Of a DNA stretch of 64,000 nucleotides, positions 3,701-63,796 are shown one piece after another. Source of the stretch: Methanobrevibacter smithii ATCC 35061. GTDB lineage: Archaea > Methanobacteriota > Methanobacteria > Methanobacteriales > Methanobacteriaceae. The stretch lies in the NCBI RefSeq assembly GCF_000016525.1, contig NC_009515.1, positions 1,638,501-1,702,500 on the forward strand. The letters run 5' to 3'. Position 1 is the first letter of the stretch, and each line of letters starts with the position of its first letter. Below the pieces are notes generated by a model. That model ran no database searches and was not told the origin of the DNA. It saw only the letters and a list, made by a program, of their open reading frames with translations. Position numbers and translations under genes: made by a program.

Positions 3701-5829
3701 ATAAAACAGTTAATTTATTAATTTTAAACGGAACTGATGTTTATCAAAATCATACATTAATAACTAATAGTTTTGGTGTAGCTAGTTTAATTCTTAATTG
3801 TAGTATGGGTAATTATACTTTTAAAGCTAGTTATAAGGGTGATGATTACTTTAAACCTGTTCAGAATAGTGCTAATTTGGTTGTAATGCCTTATTATACT
3901 TCTGTATTTGTTAAAAGTAATCAAACATTTTATGGTAATGGTAATTTCTTATATATGTATCTTTATGATAATTTAGGTGATGCTGTTGTTAATCAAATAG
4001 TTTTATTTACTATAACTAGTTCAAATGGTATTGTTTATAAGAAGTATGCTCTTACTAATTGGGAAGGTCAAGCAGGATTCTACCTTAATTTATCTGGTGG
4101 AAATTATAATGTTAATGTAAGTTATTCTGGTGATAATTGGCATTATGGGTCTTCAAGTACTGGTTTATTTAATATATTATCTATTGGAACTAATGTAATC
4201 ATTGAACAGTCTTTATTTAATGGTAGGGGTAATACTTTAACAGTATTACTTAGAGATAATAACTATAGGGTTTTATTTAATGAAACTTTATCTATTACTT
4301 TATCTGATGGTAAAATTGCACAAACATTTGATGTTACTACTAATGAAAATGGACGTGCAGGGATTATTGTTAATTTACTTCCGGGTAAATACAATGTTTA
4401 TGTGAAATATGGTGGAGATAAGTTAAACTTTGCATCTTCTAGTGAAGGTGATTTAATTATTAATCCTGTTGGCACTCAAATTTCTGCAGATTCCGTTGTT
4501 ATTTTTAATAGAACGGTTAATAATTATCTTGTTAAATTAACTGATATTTATGGACGTTTGCTTGTTAATGAGACTGTTGTTATTACATCAATTAGTCAAA
4601 GTACTGGGGTTAAACAGATATTTAAAGTTAAAACAAATGATGAAGGAATAGCTAATTTAACATGTAAGTTAGATATTGGTTATTATTTATTGAAAGTTAA
4701 CTTTGAGGATAATGAATGGTATGGTGGCAGTAATTATGCAAGTACTTTAATTGTAGCTGATACTGTTAGTGATTTTAATCCATATGCTACTATTTTAGTT
4801 GCTAATGACTTTAATAAGTATTATAAGAATGCTACTCAATATGTTGTTCGTTTGCAGGATATTTATGGTAATCCTATTTCAGATATGGATGTTGTTATTT
4901 GTGTTAATGGTGTAAATTATAATAGAATAACCAACAGTTCTGGTGAGGCTAAATTAAATATTAATTTGTATCCTGGAATGTATTATGTAAGTACAAGTTT
5001 TGGAGGTTGTGGAAATTGGACTAAATCATTTGTTAATAGTTCAGTTACAGTTTTGTCTCAAATTATTTCACATGATTTAACTAAAATTTTAAGAAATGGA
5101 AGTCAATTTATTGTTAAATTTGTTGATAATGCTGGAAATCCTATTGGAGGCAAAACAATAGATATTTCTATTAATGGAATTGTTTATTCCCGTATTACTA
5201 ATAGTTCTGGTGAGGCTAAATTAAATATTAATCTTAATCCTGGTAAATATGAGGTTATAACTTCTTGTGGTGATTTTGTTAATCATAATATGGTTAATGT
5301 TTTATCTAACATAGAAAGTGATGATCTTTCAATGTACTATAAAGATGGGTCTAAATTTAAAGTAGTTATCTATGATAGTGAAGGTAAAGTTAAACCTAAT
5401 GCAACTGTTAAATTTACCATTAATGGTGTTTCTTATGTTAAAACTACTGATAATGATGGTATAGCGGCTTTAAGCATTAATTTAAATTCTAATATTTATA
5501 CAATAACGACTGAATATAATGGTGTTGTTAATACTAATCAAATTTGGATTTATAATATGGCAGTTAATATAGGTGCTGTTAATGAAACAGTTGAAAGGGG
5601 CAATTCTTTTTGTGTAAAATTAAGTGATGTTAATGGAAATGTATTGTCTGGTGGACAAGTGACATTTAAAGTTAACGGAGTTTCATATATTAAACAGGTT
5701 AATGAAACAGGTTATGCAAAATTAAATATTAATCTTAACCCTGGAGTATATAAAATTATCACAGCATTTTCTATTAGAAACTATGAAGATAAACTAGTTT
5801 ATAATACCTTAAATGTGACAAGTCATTAA
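721..5829 (+). CDS. Adhesin-like surface protein, beta-helix plus Ig-like repeats
   Basis: A 1702-residue secreted protein. An AGGAGG ribosome-binding site sits within the end of the upstream gene, just before the ATG. Residues 1-25 form a signal peptide ending SAEDV. Two modules follow, each opening with a YV-x-NG/SG-x-GDG-x-x-NP type header (near residues 40 and 427), then parallel beta-helix repeats rich in NNS/NNT and GGAI/GGVF turns to about residue 890. From about 900 to the end there are tandem Ig-like repeats of about 90 residues, marked by a recurring I-NGV-Y core followed by a T-(N/D)-(S/N)-(S/D)-G stretch. There is no C-terminal membrane helix, unlike the upstream gene, so attachment must be non-covalent or through the Ig-like repeats. 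The likely role is adhesion to host or microbial surfaces, inferred from family only. Confidence 0.85.
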   Translation: MSNFKPILILSLFVLFMVSLGAISAEDVNVTVISDSQVDNSVYVDSNIVANGNGTIDNPISNIKNAVDLANNDSTIYLKGGNYSGVENNGIIINKTLTITSCDGLAIINGDYKDYIFYIGDKGCLTLKNISFANTNYLNVKTYGAIINYGNLTVENSFFDNATGLRAGIILNYGNLTVTNSEFKNNTAKYYGGAITNFGFANIVNSLFESNTAAEGEAILNSYDMFISNSRFVNNNISSSKYQDAESLIDISSSYFMENSGIFVKDSGIHIKESYLTLINTTNSIVDISYSFINTYDFINSKINVDDNLWCSNENIPKQANRWLIMTFTDKNTGSSIIPSKTVTDVLVSFKTCNGKSTYSLPSSVNLPHVYIQLEADNGKFKENGGFLVNNVFSTTYYGNSKDTLLFAMIDDYFATLTVGSGVNNGKIYVSNSGSDEKGDGSINNPYKSLVKAVNVALNGDTILIAKGSYYGWNNSGLLINKTLTFSSYNGEVILYRDNFHTMFTVTLRGNLNLMKLTLTAEDKSKFFPLVNNSGKTIIDNCIIKNIDGGDKYKYKSYQALSYQYYSNQSVIYTSNDLFINNSLFTDLEDIVIRSYFYTGDNYFKHFDVNIENSVFTNCKGYAWETVWDSQTYADKLDVVSPSFIINVGAENVLINNCTFKNNLASVMRVNASKSFLVNASKFINNRGSIYSLTNGVMNNTLISEDNGPVLRFVTGHTLSIIRNMQNVINSNFTKNNDVIINTWYSYSDNVYLYNCSFWNNSNNHAQGYGNTSGKGLILNGGNMTVDYCTFENNSVFYGGVFYNDGTAMGAGGIYYSTLNITRSVFYKNNAVLGKDIFHRGGNLVVSDCWWGSNRGPNDANIYNAAGSVEVKNWVILTFDIQDNTLIASLNKVTDNKSNIYNISGNLPSRIAIFNSSMVKINPNVIPLINNQAKVNISFNGEDISATVSIDNQTISLIFYNKNTIIDLKDIIVYGKGTAYSFVLKSVNGYVISNKTVNLLILNGTDVYQNHTLITNSFGVASLILNCSMGNYTFKASYKGDDYFKPVQNSANLVVMPYYTSVFVKSNQTFYGNGNFLYMYLYDNLGDAVVNQIVLFTITSSNGIVYKKYALTNWEGQAGFYLNLSGGNYNVNVSYSGDNWHYGSSSTGLFNILSIGTNVIIEQSLFNGRGNTLTVLLRDNNYRVLFNETLSITLSDGKIAQTFDVTTNENGRAGIIVNLLPGKYNVYVKYGGDKLNFASSSEGDLIINPVGTQISADSVVIFNRTVNNYLVKLTDIYGRLLVNETVVITSISQSTGVKQIFKVKTNDEGIANLTCKLDIGYYLLKVNFEDNEWYGGSNYASTLIVADTVSDFNPYATILVANDFNKYYKNATQYVVRLQDIYGNPISDMDVVICVNGVNYNRITNSSGEAKLNINLYPGMYYVSTSFGGCGNWTKSFVNSSVTVLSQIISHDLTKILRNGSQFIVKFVDNAGNPIGGKTIDISINGIVYSRITNSSGEAKLNINLNPGKYEVITSCGDFVNHNMVNVLSNIESDDLSMYYKDGSKFKVVIYDSEGKVKPNATVKFTINGVSYVKTTDNDGIAALSINLNSNIYTITTEYNGVVNTNQIWIYNMAVNIGAVNETVERGNSFCVKLSDVNGNVLSGGQVTFKVNGVSYIKQVNETGYAKLNINLNPGVYKIITAFSIRNYEDKLVYNTLNVTSH

Positions 5830-7389: not shown

Positions 7390-10300
7390 TTGAAAAATAA
7401 ATTTGCAATATTAATTTTGTTAATATTGTTTATGGTATCTATTTCTTGTGTTAGTGCAGAAGATAATGATTCTTCTAATATTCTAACTGATGGTGCTTCT
7501 GATATTTATGTTAGCCCATCTGGAAATGATGCTAATGTTGGAGATATGAATAATCCTGTTGCTACAATTAATAAAGCAATTAATTCAACTGCAACTAATA
7601 TTCATTTATCCGAAGGAAAATTCACTGGTACTGGTAATAATGGTTTAACAATTGAAAATAAAACCATAACTATTGTGGGTGCTGGTATTGATAAAACTAT
7701 AATTGATTTAAACGGAACTCAATTTATGGATATTAAATCTACTAGTTCTGTAGTTTTAACTAATTTAACTATAATAAACGGTTATTCAAATTATGGTGGA
7801 GCTATTTATAATGACGGTAATTTAACTATTCAAAATTGTAACTTTAAAAATAACTCAGCTAGTTCTGGTGGGGCGATTTACAACAATGGCAATTTAGACA
7901 TATATTATTCTACTTTTGAAGATAATTTTGTTAAATATAGTGGTGGTGCTATTTGTTCTTATAAGTATGCAACTATTCAAGATTCTACTTTTTTAAGAAA
8001 TATAGGTACTGCCACATCTTCAAATGGAGGTTCTGTTTATATTAGTGGTAATAATGATAAATATTCCATTTTGAATAGAAATAAATTTAAAGATACTCAG
8101 GCTTTAAGAAATGGTGGTGCACTTTATGTAAATTATGCAAATGTTACTAATTGTATTTTTGAAAATGCATCAATTACTTCTACAGGTTCAAGTAATGGTG
8201 GTGGAGCTATTTATGGTTCTAACTTTAATCTTAAAAACAACACTATGACTAATTGTGTATCTAAAAGTGGATATGGAAATTACATTTGGTCAACTTCTAG
8301 CTTTAATGGGGTAGTTACAGTTCTTGATGGTAAAAATGTAGATATAACTAGTTCTACTTTTACTCTTAATGCAACTGCAACTGATGATATGGGTCATCCA
8401 ATTCATGGTGGATATTATACCTTTAAATTTAATGATGTTTTTGTTGGCGGTGCAAACTCTGTTAATGGATTTATAAATGGCACATTTTCTAAATTATTTG
8501 ATAATGGTAAATATACTGTTACAGTTTCAGGTCCTTTAAATGATAATGCAGTTGTTAAAACAGCTACTGTAAATGTTAAAATTGACCGTGACTATGTGGA
8601 TTATTATGTATCACCTAATGGTGATGATAATAATACTGGTTCAAAAGATAATCCATTTAAAACCATTAATAAAGCAATAACTGAAGCTTTTGCTAAAAAT
8701 ATCTATGTAAACATACATCTTTTAGAAGGAACTTATGTAGGTGCTGGAAATCTTAATTTAACATTTAATAACTTAGGTTACCTTAACATAATTGGTGTAG
8801 ACGGTAAAACAATCATTAACGGTTCTAATAAAGATTGGGCATTTAATTTTGGAAGTACATTAAATGTTAATATTATAAATATTACATTTGCTAATTTATA
8901 TCAAAATAATTATGTAGGTTTAATTAAAGCAAGTGGAAATGATTATACTGTAAACATTGATAATTGTGTCTTTGAAAAATGTAATACAAAGTATATAATT
9001 TATATTACTAATGGTGAGATAAATAATGTAATAATGAGAGAGAATATTATAACTGGATGTGTTATTAGTGGAGGTACTAGTATAACTAATCTTTTATTTG
9101 AAAATAATTCTGGTTCCGCTTATTTCACAAATATTAAAAAAGGAGTTTACAATTCTACTTTCATAAACAACAAAATTAATCAGGGTAATGATTATGGATT
9201 ATTCTATATATCTTCCAAAAACTTTGTATCAAGCAATAATATATTTGAAAATAATACAATTAAAGCACTATATATTTCAGCATATAATGATATTAATTTT
9301 ACAAGTATAAATGATACTTTTAAAAATAATGTTGCAAAAAATGGTGGTGCTGTTAGTGGTGGCGGAACTTTTATTAATGCTAAATTTATTAATAATACAG
9401 CTACTCAAAAAGGTGGAGCTATTTACCATAATGCTATGGTTTTAGTTTTAAAAAATTGTATTTTTGAAAACAATAAAGCAGATGACGGTAATGATATATA
9501 TGGTTTTATGAGTACTAATGTTAGAATTAATCCACTTTTAAACATGTCTAATTCTTTAAAATTCGTATCTACCAATTCTTCAAATGTTAAATCTGAATTA
9601 AAAGCTATTTTTGATTTAGGTGGTATTCAAGTAAGTGGTTATAATGTTAAATTCTATTTAAATGGAACTTACAAAGGCTCAGCTCCTTTAATTGATAATG
9701 TAGCTACTTTAATAGCTATTGCTGAAGATGGAAAATACGAAATTTCCGGTTCTGTTGATCAAGTTAATAAAACTAATGTTGTTACTGGTATTTTAAATGT
9801 TAATGCTAATCCTGCAAGTGTTTTTGATGTTTATGTTTCTGAAAAAGGTAGTGATGAATCAGGTGATGGTTCATTAGCTAAACCATTTGCAACTATTAAA
9901 AAAGCATTTGATTATGGAATGAATCAAAATGCATTAAGTTTAACAATCCATTTAATTGGCACTTTAAAAGGTGAAGGTAATGTTAAACTTGATTTAAAAC
10001 CATATGTGGATTTAACTATTGTTGGTGAGAATAAAGAAACTTCAATTATTGATGCAGAAAAAAATATTTATGTATTTGATTTTGTACCAATGTATGATGA
10101 TGTTAAAGTTTATTTATCAAACTTAACAATTAAAAATGGTGTAACTAACAAGTATCCTTCTGGAGGTGTTAGTTTTACAGTGGACACTGGTCTTGTTCGC
10201 AGTACTGGTTTTTATTTAAATGTTAATAACTGTATATTTATGAATAATACAGGTTATGGAATTTCCGCAGATAAATTATTCTCAACTATTGTAATTAATA

Positions 10301-58720: not shown

Positions 58721-59944
58721 ATGTCACAAGATTTCCCAGAAAGTCCTTTTGAACCAGGGAGACCAGTATCTCCAGATAATTTTAAAGGAAGAAAAGAAGA
58801 TATCAACAAAATTATAAAATATTTACCTAAAGTTAAAAATCAAGGAGCTCCCGAACATTTTTTCATAACTGGAAAGAGAGGAATGGGTAAAACATCATTT
58901 ATAAATTATGTTTCAAGAAAAGCAGAAGATGATTTTCAAATGATTCCAATCCATATTAACAATGGTGGTGGAAAAACTATTGATGAATTAATACAAAAGT
59001 TACTTGATGGATTATTAAAAGAATTTAAAAAGGATTATTTAGGTAAAAGTGTAATTGATAAAATTTTGAATAATATTAATGAATTTAAAGTTGCAGGGAC
59101 TGGAGTATCTTTAAAAGATAATGATACTAATTTAATTCATAATATTAAAAAACATTTTGCAGATTTTTTGATTACTACTTGTAAAGAATTACCTGAAGAT
59201 TATGGAATATTTATTGTTGTTGATGATCTTAATGGTTTATCTGATAATGAAGAGTTTACAGATTGGTATAAAGGATTATCTGAAACATTATTGGTTAATG
59301 AATATCATATGCCTGTTGTTTTCACATTAATAAGTTACCCTCATGAATTTGAAAAATTATGTTCAATTAATGAATCATTTTCTAGAATGTTTAATTTAAT
59401 TGAAATTGATAATTTAGAGGATAATGATATTGAAGATTTCTTCACAACTTCATTTAATAATGTAGGCATTGAGTTTGAAGATGGATATAATTCTATAGAA
59501 CCTATGGTTTATTTTTCATGGGGTATGCCTTTAATAATGCAACAAATTGGTGATTCAATTTTTTGGAATGCTCAAGATAATTTAAAAATAAATGAATCTA
59601 TAGTATTTTCTGGTATTACTGATGCAACAGATGAATTAGCTAAAAAACAATTAAAATCCAAATTAAATAAAATTAGAAGCGATACATATATTGATATTTT
59701 TCTTAAATTAGGGGAAAATAGATTAATGGATTTTAAAAAATCAGATGTGAAAAATATTTTGACAAATGGGGAGAAGAGAGCTTTTAATGATTTTTTAAAG
59801 AGAGCTAAAGACCTTGGGATTATAGAGTCTATTGGGAGAGAAAATAGTGGGGAATATGGTTTTGTAAATAGATTATACTTTACATATTTTATGATGTTAT
59901 CAGAACAAAAAAAGGTTGAAAAAGAACAATTAAATGCAAAATAA
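58721..59944 (+). CDS. AAA ATPase (ORC/NTPase-like)
   Basis: About 407 residues from ATG 58721, with GAGGGG 12 bases before it. Walker A is GKRGMGKTS in FITGKRGMGKTSFINYVS, Walker B is IFIVVDDL in YGIFIVVDDLNGLSD, and a likely sensor stretch is VVFTLISYPHEF. The C-terminal 120 residues form a winged-helix-like part (LKLGENRLMDFKKSDVKNILTN, AKDLGIIESIGREN). It looks like archaeal ORC/Cdc6-related or STAND-type ATPases found in mobile elements. Replication initiator, DNA transport or defence are all possible. Confidence 0.7.
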   Translation: MSQDFPESPFEPGRPVSPDNFKGRKEDINKIIKYLPKVKNQGAPEHFFITGKRGMGKTSFINYVSRKAEDDFQMIPIHINNGGGKTIDELIQKLLDGLLKEFKKDYLGKSVIDKILNNINEFKVAGTGVSLKDNDTNLIHNIKKHFADFLITTCKELPEDYGIFIVVDDLNGLSDNEEFTDWYKGLSETLLVNEYHMPVVFTLISYPHEFEKLCSINESFSRMFNLIEIDNLEDNDIEDFFTTSFNNVGIEFEDGYNSIEPMVYFSWGMPLIMQQIGDSIFWNAQDNLKINESIVFSGITDATDELAKKQLKSKLNKIRSDTYIDIFLKLGENRLMDFKKSDVKNILTNGEKRAFNDFLKRAKDLGIIESIGRENSGEYGFVNRLYFTYFMMLSEQKKVEKEQLNAK

Positions 59945-61923: not shown

Positions 61924-62535
61924 ATGACTATATATCAGAAAATTGCAGGAATTCAAAAGAATCTCCTGCATAAAAAATTACCTAAAAGTGGGTACAATAA
62001 ATTTGGGAAATTTAAGTACTATGAATTAGAAGATATTTTGCCTGCAATCTTTTGTGAATGTTATGAACAGGAGTTATTCATTGAGTTTTCATTTACAAAT
62101 GAATTGGCTCAATTGAAAATCAGAAATTGGAATGAACCTGGGGAATCTGTCATCACCAGTGTTCCTATGCCTGAAATAGTTGCTTTAAATAAAGGTATGA
62201 ATGTAATGCAAAGTGAAGGCAGTTACATTACTTACTTAAAAAGATATTTATTAGCAAACATGTTTCTAATTGTTGAAAAAGATGTTGTGGATTCTGATAA
62301 AATTAATGTTAAAACTGCTAAGGGTAGTTCTGCAAGAACTGAGAAAGTTGAGGCTACTGGTGCTGTGCAGAAAATCCGCGAGTATATTCATAAAAAGGAC
62401 AGTTCACTGGAAATAACTCCATCTATGATTAATACTCATAGAATGAAGTTATTCAAAGATGGTGAACTGACCAAAGCTGAAAACAAAGAAGCATATAACT
62501 GGTTTAAAAATCAAGAAAAAGAGGTTGCTGTTTAA
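61924..62535 (+). CDS. ERF-family single-strand annealing protein
   Basis: 203 residues. The N-terminal ~120 residues fit the ERF superfamily: IYQKIAGIQKNLLHKKLPKSGYNKFGKFKYYELEDILPAIF, then IRNWNEPGESVITSVPMPE and GMNVMQSEGSYITYLKRYLLANMFLI. ERF proteins pair complementary DNA strands during viral replication or recombination. GGGGGAT precedes the ATG. It is the clearest replication gene in the element and supports a viral origin. Confidence 0.75.
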   Translation: MTIYQKIAGIQKNLLHKKLPKSGYNKFGKFKYYELEDILPAIFCECYEQELFIEFSFTNELAQLKIRNWNEPGESVITSVPMPEIVALNKGMNVMQSEGSYITYLKRYLLANMFLIVEKDVVDSDKINVKTAKGSSARTEKVEATGAVQKIREYIHKKDSSLEITPSMINTHRMKLFKDGELTKAENKEAYNWFKNQEKEVAV

Positions 62536-62537
62536 TT

Positions 62538-62732
62538 ATGGAACCTAAGGTAGAAATAATATTCATACAATTCAAGGCATCAGGAAATACTGGATCCAAT
62601 ACTGTGAACTGGGACAGTATAGATGGATGGTGGTGTAGTTGTGAAGATTATTTCTACCGACATCAAAAAGTAGAACATTATAAATGCAAACATATTAAAA
62701 AAGCAGAAAAAATGTTAGGTGTAAGAGTATGA
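62538..62732 (+). CDS. SWIM-type zinc finger small protein
   Basis: 64 residues. WWCSCEDYFYRHQKVEHYKCKHIKKAEKML has the CxC-x(n)-CxH pattern of the SWIM zinc finger, usually a DNA- or protein-binding module in recombination factors and transposases. It follows the ERF gene by 2 bases and overlaps the next by ATGA. Confidence 0.7.
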   Translation: MEPKVEIIFIQFKASGNTGSNTVNWDSIDGWWCSCEDYFYRHQKVEHYKCKHIKKAEKMLGVRV

Positions 62733-62983
62733 ATACTCAGGATAATTTCCCTGAAGTGGTATCTGGTAGGATTACTACAAGGGCAAAAAAGTTAATGGAA
62801 AAGTATGGTTTAACTGTACGTTTCTGCGTGGAACATTGCATTGATATGTATGTGAGTAAACAAAATCAAAGGTTAATTGAAAAGGACCAGTTAAAAGAGG
62901 AAATCAGGTCTTTAAAATTAGATTTAATTGCAAAGGAAATGCAATTAGAAACTGTCATGAAAGAGTTAGGTGATGATGTATGA
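62729..62983 (+). CDS. Small DNA-binding-like coiled-coil protein
   Basis: 84 residues: SGRITTRAKKLMEKYGLTVRFCVEHCIDMYVSKQN suggests a short ribbon-helix-helix-like start, then a coiled coil (RLIEKDQLKEEIRSLKLDLIAKEMQLETVMKEL). It overlaps both neighbours by ATGA. A regulator or structural partner of the next protein is plausible. Confidence 0.55.
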   Translation: MNTQDNFPEVVSGRITTRAKKLMEKYGLTVRFCVEHCIDMYVSKQNQRLIEKDQLKEEIRSLKLDLIAKEMQLETVMKELGDDV

Positions 62984-63399
62984 GTGAAAAAATACAGGTT
63001 TCATTCATGGTTGATTCTGAAGTATGGAGGGAAGCTAAAAACAAACTGGGGACAACCAGAAGTGAGTTTTTAGAAGAGCAGTTAAGATTAGCTATTGATT
63101 TATCTGAAGATGAGGAAAATAGTTTGAGAAAAGAGATAGCTGAGTTGCAAAATGAGATTAATGCTCGTGAATCAAGATTATGTAAGATTCGTGCTGAGCG
63201 TTTAGAACATGAAAGAAGTGTAAATGTCTTTGATGGGGTGATGGGTACAGTTAATAGGATTGTTGATAATGCTGGTTTTATTGGTAAAGATCAGCTGAAG
63301 AATATTAGTAAGCAGCAAGAAGTTCCGTATAAGTCATTATTGGATCATGTGTATGATTTGGGTTATGATGTTCGGAATTATGGTTTGGTGATAAAATGA
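62980..63399 (+). CDS. Ribbon-helix-helix and coiled-coil protein
   Basis: 139 residues. Residues 1-40 (IQVSFMVDSEVWREAKNKLGTTRSEFLEEQLRLA) form a ribbon-helix-helix DNA-binding motif. A coiled coil (about 45-80, SLRKEIAELQNEINARESRLC) and a C-terminal small domain (FIGKDQLKNISKQQEVPYKSLLDHVYDLGYDV) follow. It is the last gene before the twin palindromes at 63,402 and 63,509, which makes it the leading candidate for their binding protein. Confidence 0.65.
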   Translation: MSEKIQVSFMVDSEVWREAKNKLGTTRSEFLEEQLRLAIDLSEDEENSLRKEIAELQNEINARESRLCKIRAERLEHERSVNVFDGVMGTVNRIVDNAGFIGKDQLKNISKQQEVPYKSLLDHVYDLGYDVRNYGLVIK

Positions 63400-63401
63400 T
63401 T

Positions 63402-63528
63402 TGTAAACATTTATGTTTACATTTTTCCGAAGAACCTGTAGGAAACCACGTACGTGCACGTACGTACGTACGTATACGTACGTAATTCACTATAAATATT
63501 TTTTAAATTGTAAACATTTATGTTTACA
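63402..63528. promoter_or_regulatory. Twin palindromes around an alternating CGTA tract and promoter
   Basis: TGTAAACATTTATGTTTACA occurs exactly twice, at 63402-63421 and 63509-63528, each a perfect 9-bp dyad around TT. Between them a 38-base strictly alternating pyrimidine-purine tract (63447-63484) is built of CGTA/CACG units. TATAAATATT (63491-63500) is a TATA box placing transcription start inside the second palindrome. The set looks like an operator-promoter, a replication start, or both. Confidence 0.65.
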
Positions 63529-63550: not shown

Positions 63551-63796
63551 ATGAATAAACCAGTTTTTAATATTGTTGAAACGGATTATGATGTTTCTAA
63601 AGGTGAAGAAACATATTTGAAATTCAGGAGAGATTATAAACATGAATTAAATATCTCTGTTGATGAGTTGCAGAAAAGGTATGGATTAACTCGACATCAA
63701 AAAGATTCCTTTGTGAAAAGAATCATTTGTGAAGATCATGTTAGGCGTTATGGGGGAAATAACTTCCAAACTAGGTTAAAAAAGGTGGAATCATGA
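63551..63796 (+). CDS. Small basic unknown protein
   Basis: 81 residues. AAGGAGAG precedes the ATG. The text VDELQKRYGLTRHQKDSFVKRIICEDHVRRYGG suggests a helix-turn-helix. It starts a new operon under the palindrome promoter and overlaps the next gene by ATGA. No family recognised. Confidence 0.55.
   Translation: MNKPVFNIVETDYDVSKGEETYLKFRRDYKHELNISVDELQKRYGLTRHQKDSFVKRIICEDHVRRYGGNNFQTRLKKVES

Follow-up and report, generated by a model that had tools for sequence, protein, structure and literature searches.

On pMBL6842, replication is controlled by PrpA, a ribbon-helix-helix (RHH) protein that binds the origin iterons beside an AT-rich region and acts as an antitoxin competing with RepB (PMC7848731). 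The origin of SNJ2 relies on the rolling-circle endonuclease Rep-Arvir and is a hairpin origin (PMC13107129). With regard to the virus studied here, Methanobrevibacter smithii tailed virus 1 (MSTV1) has been reported in 20% of the sequenced M. smithii strains and described as the archaeal virus that is probably most abundant in the human gut; its Orc1/Cdc6-like protein is abundant in host vesicles, and the provirus of M. smithii PS was reported to be sporadically reactivated, with production of siphovirus-like particles (PMC12134362). The literature searched, whose scope excludes the original MSTV1 description, yielded no account of the replication mode of this virus.

Here we analyse a 127-bp repeat block that is probably the core of the MSTV1 replication origin (oriV), of a modular type present in viruses and integrated elements of the Methanobacteriaceae. 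As in the PrpA/pMBL6842 system, an RHH-like protein would bind iterons close to an A/T-rich stretch and control replication; the block differs in having no recognised toxin or Rep gene next to it, in the presence of two RHH-like proteins with separate predicted sites, and in its archaeal host. A short palindrome likewise adjoins the viral origin of SNJ2, which is located where a replication operon has its 3′ end, whereas neither a rolling-circle endonuclease nor a hairpin origin was recognised in MSTV1. In the SegAB centromeres (PMC12284271), an archaeal RHH protein likewise occupies specific sites, as predicted for MSTV1; on the other hand, no SegA/ParA ATPase gene was found among the annotated MSTV1 genes or the Pfam-scanned neighbours, and the element family has ORBs and A/T runs. 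Finally, several relatives resemble the Orc1/Cdc6-ORB archaeal origins, such as the oriC of Methanobacteriales, in having the host ORB core beside repeats and a long A/T run, in some cases by MCM-domain genes, whereas MSTV1 itself is without a recognisable ORB and the repeats are apparently read by small RHH-like proteins.

A repeat block downstream of two small genes of MSTV1

The window, i.e. the whole stretch of DNA analysed (64,000 nucleotides, with a GC content of 28.5%), corresponds to positions 1638501–1702500 of the 1,853,160-bp genome of Methanobrevibacter smithii ATCC 35061. The provirus that holds the repeats matches MSTV1 (PP537965; 53 annotated genes) without any difference across the 1.1 kb queried, and window position 63402 equals MSTV1 position 8671. 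The block is located directly 3′ of two small genes, named RHH1 and RHH2 in this analysis, in the following context:

58721–59944, + strand: Orc1/Cdc6-like AAA+ protein (GenBank annotation; partial TIGR02928 match at 3.2e-9, below cut-off)
61924–62535, + strand: ERF-family ssDNA-annealing protein (Pfam ERF, 5.4e-18); recombination/replication module
62538–62732, + strand: small SWIM-type zinc-finger protein (PF04434, 0.0067, below cut-off)
62729–62983, + strand: RHH1, 84 aa, phrog_12096, strand motif VVSGRIT; predicted TGTTTACA binder
62980–63399, + strand: RHH2, 139 aa, phrog_12892, strand motif KIQVSFMVD, with a coiled coil and a C-terminal domain; predicted tract binder
63402–63421, unstranded: left palindrome TGTAAACATTTATGTTTACA, two inverted TGTTTACA half-sites with a 4-bp spacer; predicted RHH1 site
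63428–63444, + strand: conserved core motif CGAAGAACCTGTAGGAA (compare CGAGGGTCTTGTAGGAA in L071, CGAAGGTCTTGTAGG in L163, and L070, L080 and L185)
63447–63484, unstranded: alternating tract, four ACGTACGT octamers; predicted RHH2 iteron array
63491–63509, + strand: 19-nt A/T run with TATAAATAT; probable TATA box for the operon that follows, and/or short unwinding region
63509–63528, unstranded: right palindrome, same as the left copy; another predicted RHH1 site, covering the position where transcription is expected to begin
63551–63796, + strand: first gene of the downstream operon, phrog_13618; another gene takes this place in the sister provirus L017

The palindromes and the alternating tract that the preliminary description had pointed out were borne out. 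The two 20-bp palindromes are exact copies of TGTAAACATTTATGTTTACA (63402–63421 and 63509–63528, 107 bp from start to start), both embedded in a 26-nt exact direct repeat, with perfect 9-bp arms and a central TT as the sole asymmetry; the palindrome family gave four matches vs 0.04 expected, a number that none of 100 shuffles reached. Pyrimidines and purines alternate over exactly 38 nt, far beyond the next longest such run in the window (13 nt) and the longest in 100 simulated sequences of MSTV1 length (20 nt). It reads ACGTACGT-GC-ACGTACGT-ACGTACGT-AT-ACGTACGT, with the four octamers spaced 10-8-10, and is nearly self-complementary. Transcription is expected to start about 25 nt downstream of TATAAATAT (63491–63499), a predicted position within the second palindrome.

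Further copies, which had been thought worth seeking in the rest of the element, were not found there: the tract is the sole ACGTACGT cluster in MSTV1, and the remainder of the virus contains neither a second TGTTTACA pair nor another ACGTACGT. Tract and palindromes are also without further copies in the rest of the M. smithii genome, there is no other copy of TGTAAACATnnATGTTTACA anywhere in its 1.85 Mb, and no ACGTACGT cluster was detected, with one mismatch allowed, in 66 other genomes of the genus. A repeat-density scan identified the element as the densest stretch of MSTV1 (67 vs at most 21 elsewhere), showing in this virus the cluster of directly repeated sites that characterises iteron-type origins. 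GC skew gave no signal on the origin position in MSTV1 because nearly all genes are on one strand.

Several other sequence leads were discarded. Exact matches to the palindrome in viral contigs were mostly in unrelated viruses and were taken as chance matches; ACGTACGTnnACGTACGT matched contigs that seem to be unrelated and, inside the genus, was confined to MSTV1; and the search for TGTTTACATTTnnGCGA in viral contigs revealed no visible relatives of the element. The copies of TTTACATTTCAGCGAGG in genome G127 (L155–L158) were set aside as belonging to a multi-copy repeat of more than 100 bp that begins with this sequence and is probably a small mobile element.

A conserved element follows the RHH genes in related loci

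Homologues of RHH1 and RHH2 were found in other Methanobacteriaceae. A matching cis-element was present after the stop codon of the homologue in 15 of the 17 RHH2-type loci and in all seven RHH1-type loci, as counted by eye on the sequences with MSTV1 included. The RHH2-type exceptions were L068, in which the gene is present and the element is not visible, and L078, in which the gene is broken; in L071 and L080 one further RHH-like gene is placed between the RHH2 homologue and the element. The RHH1- and RHH2-type proteins tried were absent from phage records other than MSTV1, and no RHH2 homologues were found in plasmids. Judged by sequence, the MSTV1 repeats match a DNA module that is shared by some 20 related elements, viral or integrated.

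Within the element, the left box is followed by the core, an array of internal repeats and often a right box; before the next gene there is usually a long A/T run. The core (CGARG..CTTGT.GG) is recognisable in about half of the elements, and the core motif GCGARGGTCTTGTNG had five exact matches in the 139 genomes searched, corresponding to four known elements and L185. In the loci with both RHH1 and RHH2 (MSTV1, L066, L067, L069, and L070) the outer boxes are TGTTTACA, present at the left-palindrome position in all of them, whereas the RHH2-only loci are without these boxes. The second TGTTTACA half-sites are 107–110 bp apart in MSTV1, L066, L069, and L070; the L067 sequence breaks off near a contig end, and some loci stop at contig edges. 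At the position of the tract, the relatives hold other repeat arrays (GTATGGATA, GTGTGTATT and others) that do not alternate strictly throughout. In the comparison with related elements that have the same genes, which had been proposed earlier, the TGTTTACA boxes are thus kept, along with their spacing in the loci intact at both ends, and the ACGT tract is not kept as such. No other part of the locus is as dense in repeats as the stretch following RHH2 in MSTV1, L017, L067, L069, L070, L072, L077, and L081, and in L073 this stretch ties for first.

MSTV1 and the sister provirus L017 share an identical 129-bp element, whereas their RHH2 genes differ at 11 of 420 bases. The first downstream gene varies among relatives, also between these two proviruses; in L017 (IMGVR_UViG_2547132060_000002, 4421–4900) it is swapped exactly after the right palindrome. 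In relatives, element and next gene are separated by the A/T run, often with a separate AATATAACAATGTTA motif in addition. A conserved inverted repeat like AATATAACAATGTTA, past the A/T run and before the next gene, was observed in L069, L074, L079, L080, L081, L165, L169, and L185, and this motif is possibly a promoter or a part of the origin. Small Cys/His proteins resembling the SWIM-type protein of MSTV1 occur in many relatives.

Origin-type features of the element family

The host origin box was derived from the oriC of M. smithii, in which WTTWCACTTGAAA forms a cluster just upstream of orc1. The ORB core ACACTTGAAA is present in 7 of 15 RHH2 elements vs 7 copies in 253 kb of flanking sequence (P about 8e-11). 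It is often situated just past the stop codon, a place taken by TGTTTACA in the RHH1-type loci, and is also found inside the L163 element. In MSTV1 there is no ORB at up to one mismatch, the best match having two. In 10 of 16 RHH2 loci the longest A/T run lies in or after the element, and in three more the run there ranks second; in the sister provirus L017 it is again the longest. The run of the MSTV1 element is only 19 nt long and ranks 19th in the virus, the AT-richest stretches being elsewhere (11293 and 3192).

Regarding neighbouring genes, proteins with MCM N-terminal/OB domains are encoded upstream of the element in L066, L072, and L076 (L072 read by eye), an MCM-like frame is located downstream of the L073 element, and annealing-type recombinase genes (ERF, Sak4-like) precede the element in several loci. 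No ATPase was detected in the MCM N-terminal and OB proteins of L066, L072, and L076, some of which have an HNH nuclease domain; in L165 and L169, HNH-like ends are likewise found ahead of the RHH1-type genes. Apart from this family, the viral sequence L200 (vir080, BK063677) has an intergenic region (7946–8290) with many GTTACTT/AAGTAAC repeats after a primase/helicase-like gene, which is another candidate methanogen-virus origin.

Covariation of RHH-like proteins and DNA boxes

Sequence comparison lends weak support to an RHH fold in RHH2: 7 of 15 homologues matched the CcdA profile at E ≤ 0.05 (best value 0.0013), and RHH2 aligned in the correct register to NikR-type RHH proteins with a probability of only 5.9%. 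In the case of RHH1, we infer an RHH fold from the sequence pattern; the MSTV1 protein had no RHH match in Pfam, NCBIfam or PDB, and the PDB and NCBIfam searches gave no fold identification for the RHH proteins. AF2 models placed two helices after the putative strand, although single-sequence models cannot show a dimer strand. A structure search with the RHH2 model resulted in no match below E 0.001; the best structural match, a resemblance of the C-terminal part to winged-helix proteins, was weak and was rejected.

Analysis of the homologues revealed that the N-terminal strand and the DNA boxes change together. Among RHH1 homologues, the box can be predicted from a putative strand of seven residues: VVSGR[IV]T pairs with a TGTTTAC box in six loci, and VSAR pairs with a TGTCnnAC box in L165 and L166; L185, found through the core motif rather than by protein similarity, has a VSAR strand along with TGTCAGAC. 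Comparison of L163 with L169 showed a largely shared first-helix region, with differences in both strand and box. For RHH2 homologues, the strand KKVSISID corresponds to the inner array GTATGGATA, RKN[VI]TLD to GTGTGTATT, and V-T-[IL]-T-L-D to GTATGTATT. With the remainder of the protein controlled for in partial Mantel tests, which remove the shared ancestry of the loci only in part, the N-terminal strand was associated with the RHH1 box (r = 0.75, p = 0.0004, n = 11) and with the RHH2 array (r = 0.40, p = 0.003, n = 13). This covariation makes it most likely that RHH1 reads the palindromes and RHH2 the ACGT array, and it argues for the earlier suggestion that ribbon-helix-helix proteins would bind at this site.

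Proposed function and alternative explanations

From the observed sequence, its unique location, the conserved architecture, the ORB enrichment and the box-protein covariation, we infer protein binding, complex formation, initiation and repression as follows. RHH1 would bind the two TGTAAACA/TGTTTACA palindromes and RHH2 the ACGTACGT array, and the two proteins bound over about 107 bp would build a nucleoprotein complex. This complex, along with the conserved core and the adjacent A/T stretch, would recruit an Orc1/Cdc6-type initiator and MCM. In the relatives, the host Orc1 would be recruited through the ORB; in MSTV1, more speculatively, the Orc1-like protein of the virus itself might be recruited. 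In MSTV1 the right palindrome lies on the predicted start of the next operon, and RHH1 would repress this operon, coupling replication to transcription. Against the origin reading, MSTV1 has no recognisable ORB and a short A/T run, the RHH fold is weakly supported, L068 has the gene and no visible element, and the conservation of element and protein also fits a site that serves regulation alone or resembles a centromere.

RHH proteins are classic repressors, and the block could be an operator only, from which the RHH-like proteins control the promoter at 63491 and the operon from 63551 as an early/late or lysogeny switch. The position of TATAAATAT at 63491–63499 with the second palindrome over the expected start, and a Shine-Dalgarno-like AAGGAGAG followed by the ATG at 63551, are in agreement with such a role; with the right palindrome lying across the start expected for the next operon, repression is plausible in MSTV1. 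However, this promoter overlap is peculiar to MSTV1: in L069, where both boxes are present and the next gene is intact, ~100 nt that include a long A/T run separate the second box from the following ATG, and several relatives show the separate AATATAACAATGTTA motif ahead of the next gene. Moreover, the first downstream gene is not conserved even though the MSTV1 and L017 elements are identical, the virus has no further TGTTTACA pair or ACGTACGT, and control of the operon leaves the ORB enrichment unexplained. We consider it unlikely that the element is an operator alone.

A partition role, in which the RHH-like proteins would bind the tandem boxes as a centromere in the manner of ParG, omega, and SegB, appears improbable. 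Tandem boxes adjoining an RHH-like gene are the layout of RHH centromeres, and the unrelated viral contig L014 has a palindrome of the same class (547–566) upstream of a ParA-like frame starting MKIISMVNNKGGVGKTT. Nevertheless, neither the 53 annotated genes of MSTV1 nor the Pfam-scanned neighbours include an ATPase of the ParA/SegA type, MSTV1 is an integrated provirus, and ORBs, MCM-domain genes and long A/T runs are features of origins. The idea that the tract acts through Z-DNA or a cruciform, structures raised in the preliminary description, draws on its 38 nt of strict alternation and near self-complementarity, but the arrays of the relatives (GTATGGATA or GTGTGTATT) do not alternate throughout. 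Z-DNA or cruciform formation is therefore not the conserved feature; TA steps also disfavour Z-DNA, and we regard this mode of action as very improbable. Altogether, of the three functions originally suggested for the palindromes and tract, a viral origin is now the best supported, partition and a genetic switch being less so.

Implications for methanogen viruses

Beyond the probable oriV of MSTV1, a more tentative proposal, which we regard as possible rather than probable, is that the element represents an undescribed modular class of methanogen-virus origins, in which small RHH-like proteins specify the origin and each virus shifts its origin address as the short DNA-reading strand and the boxes change together, so that related viruses and the host avoid cross-firing. 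If the origin reading is right, these results would provide an entire set of methanogen viruses with candidate origins, along with a predicted protein-DNA recognition code testable in vitro, and would open a way towards self-replicating vectors in a group for which few genetic tools exist.
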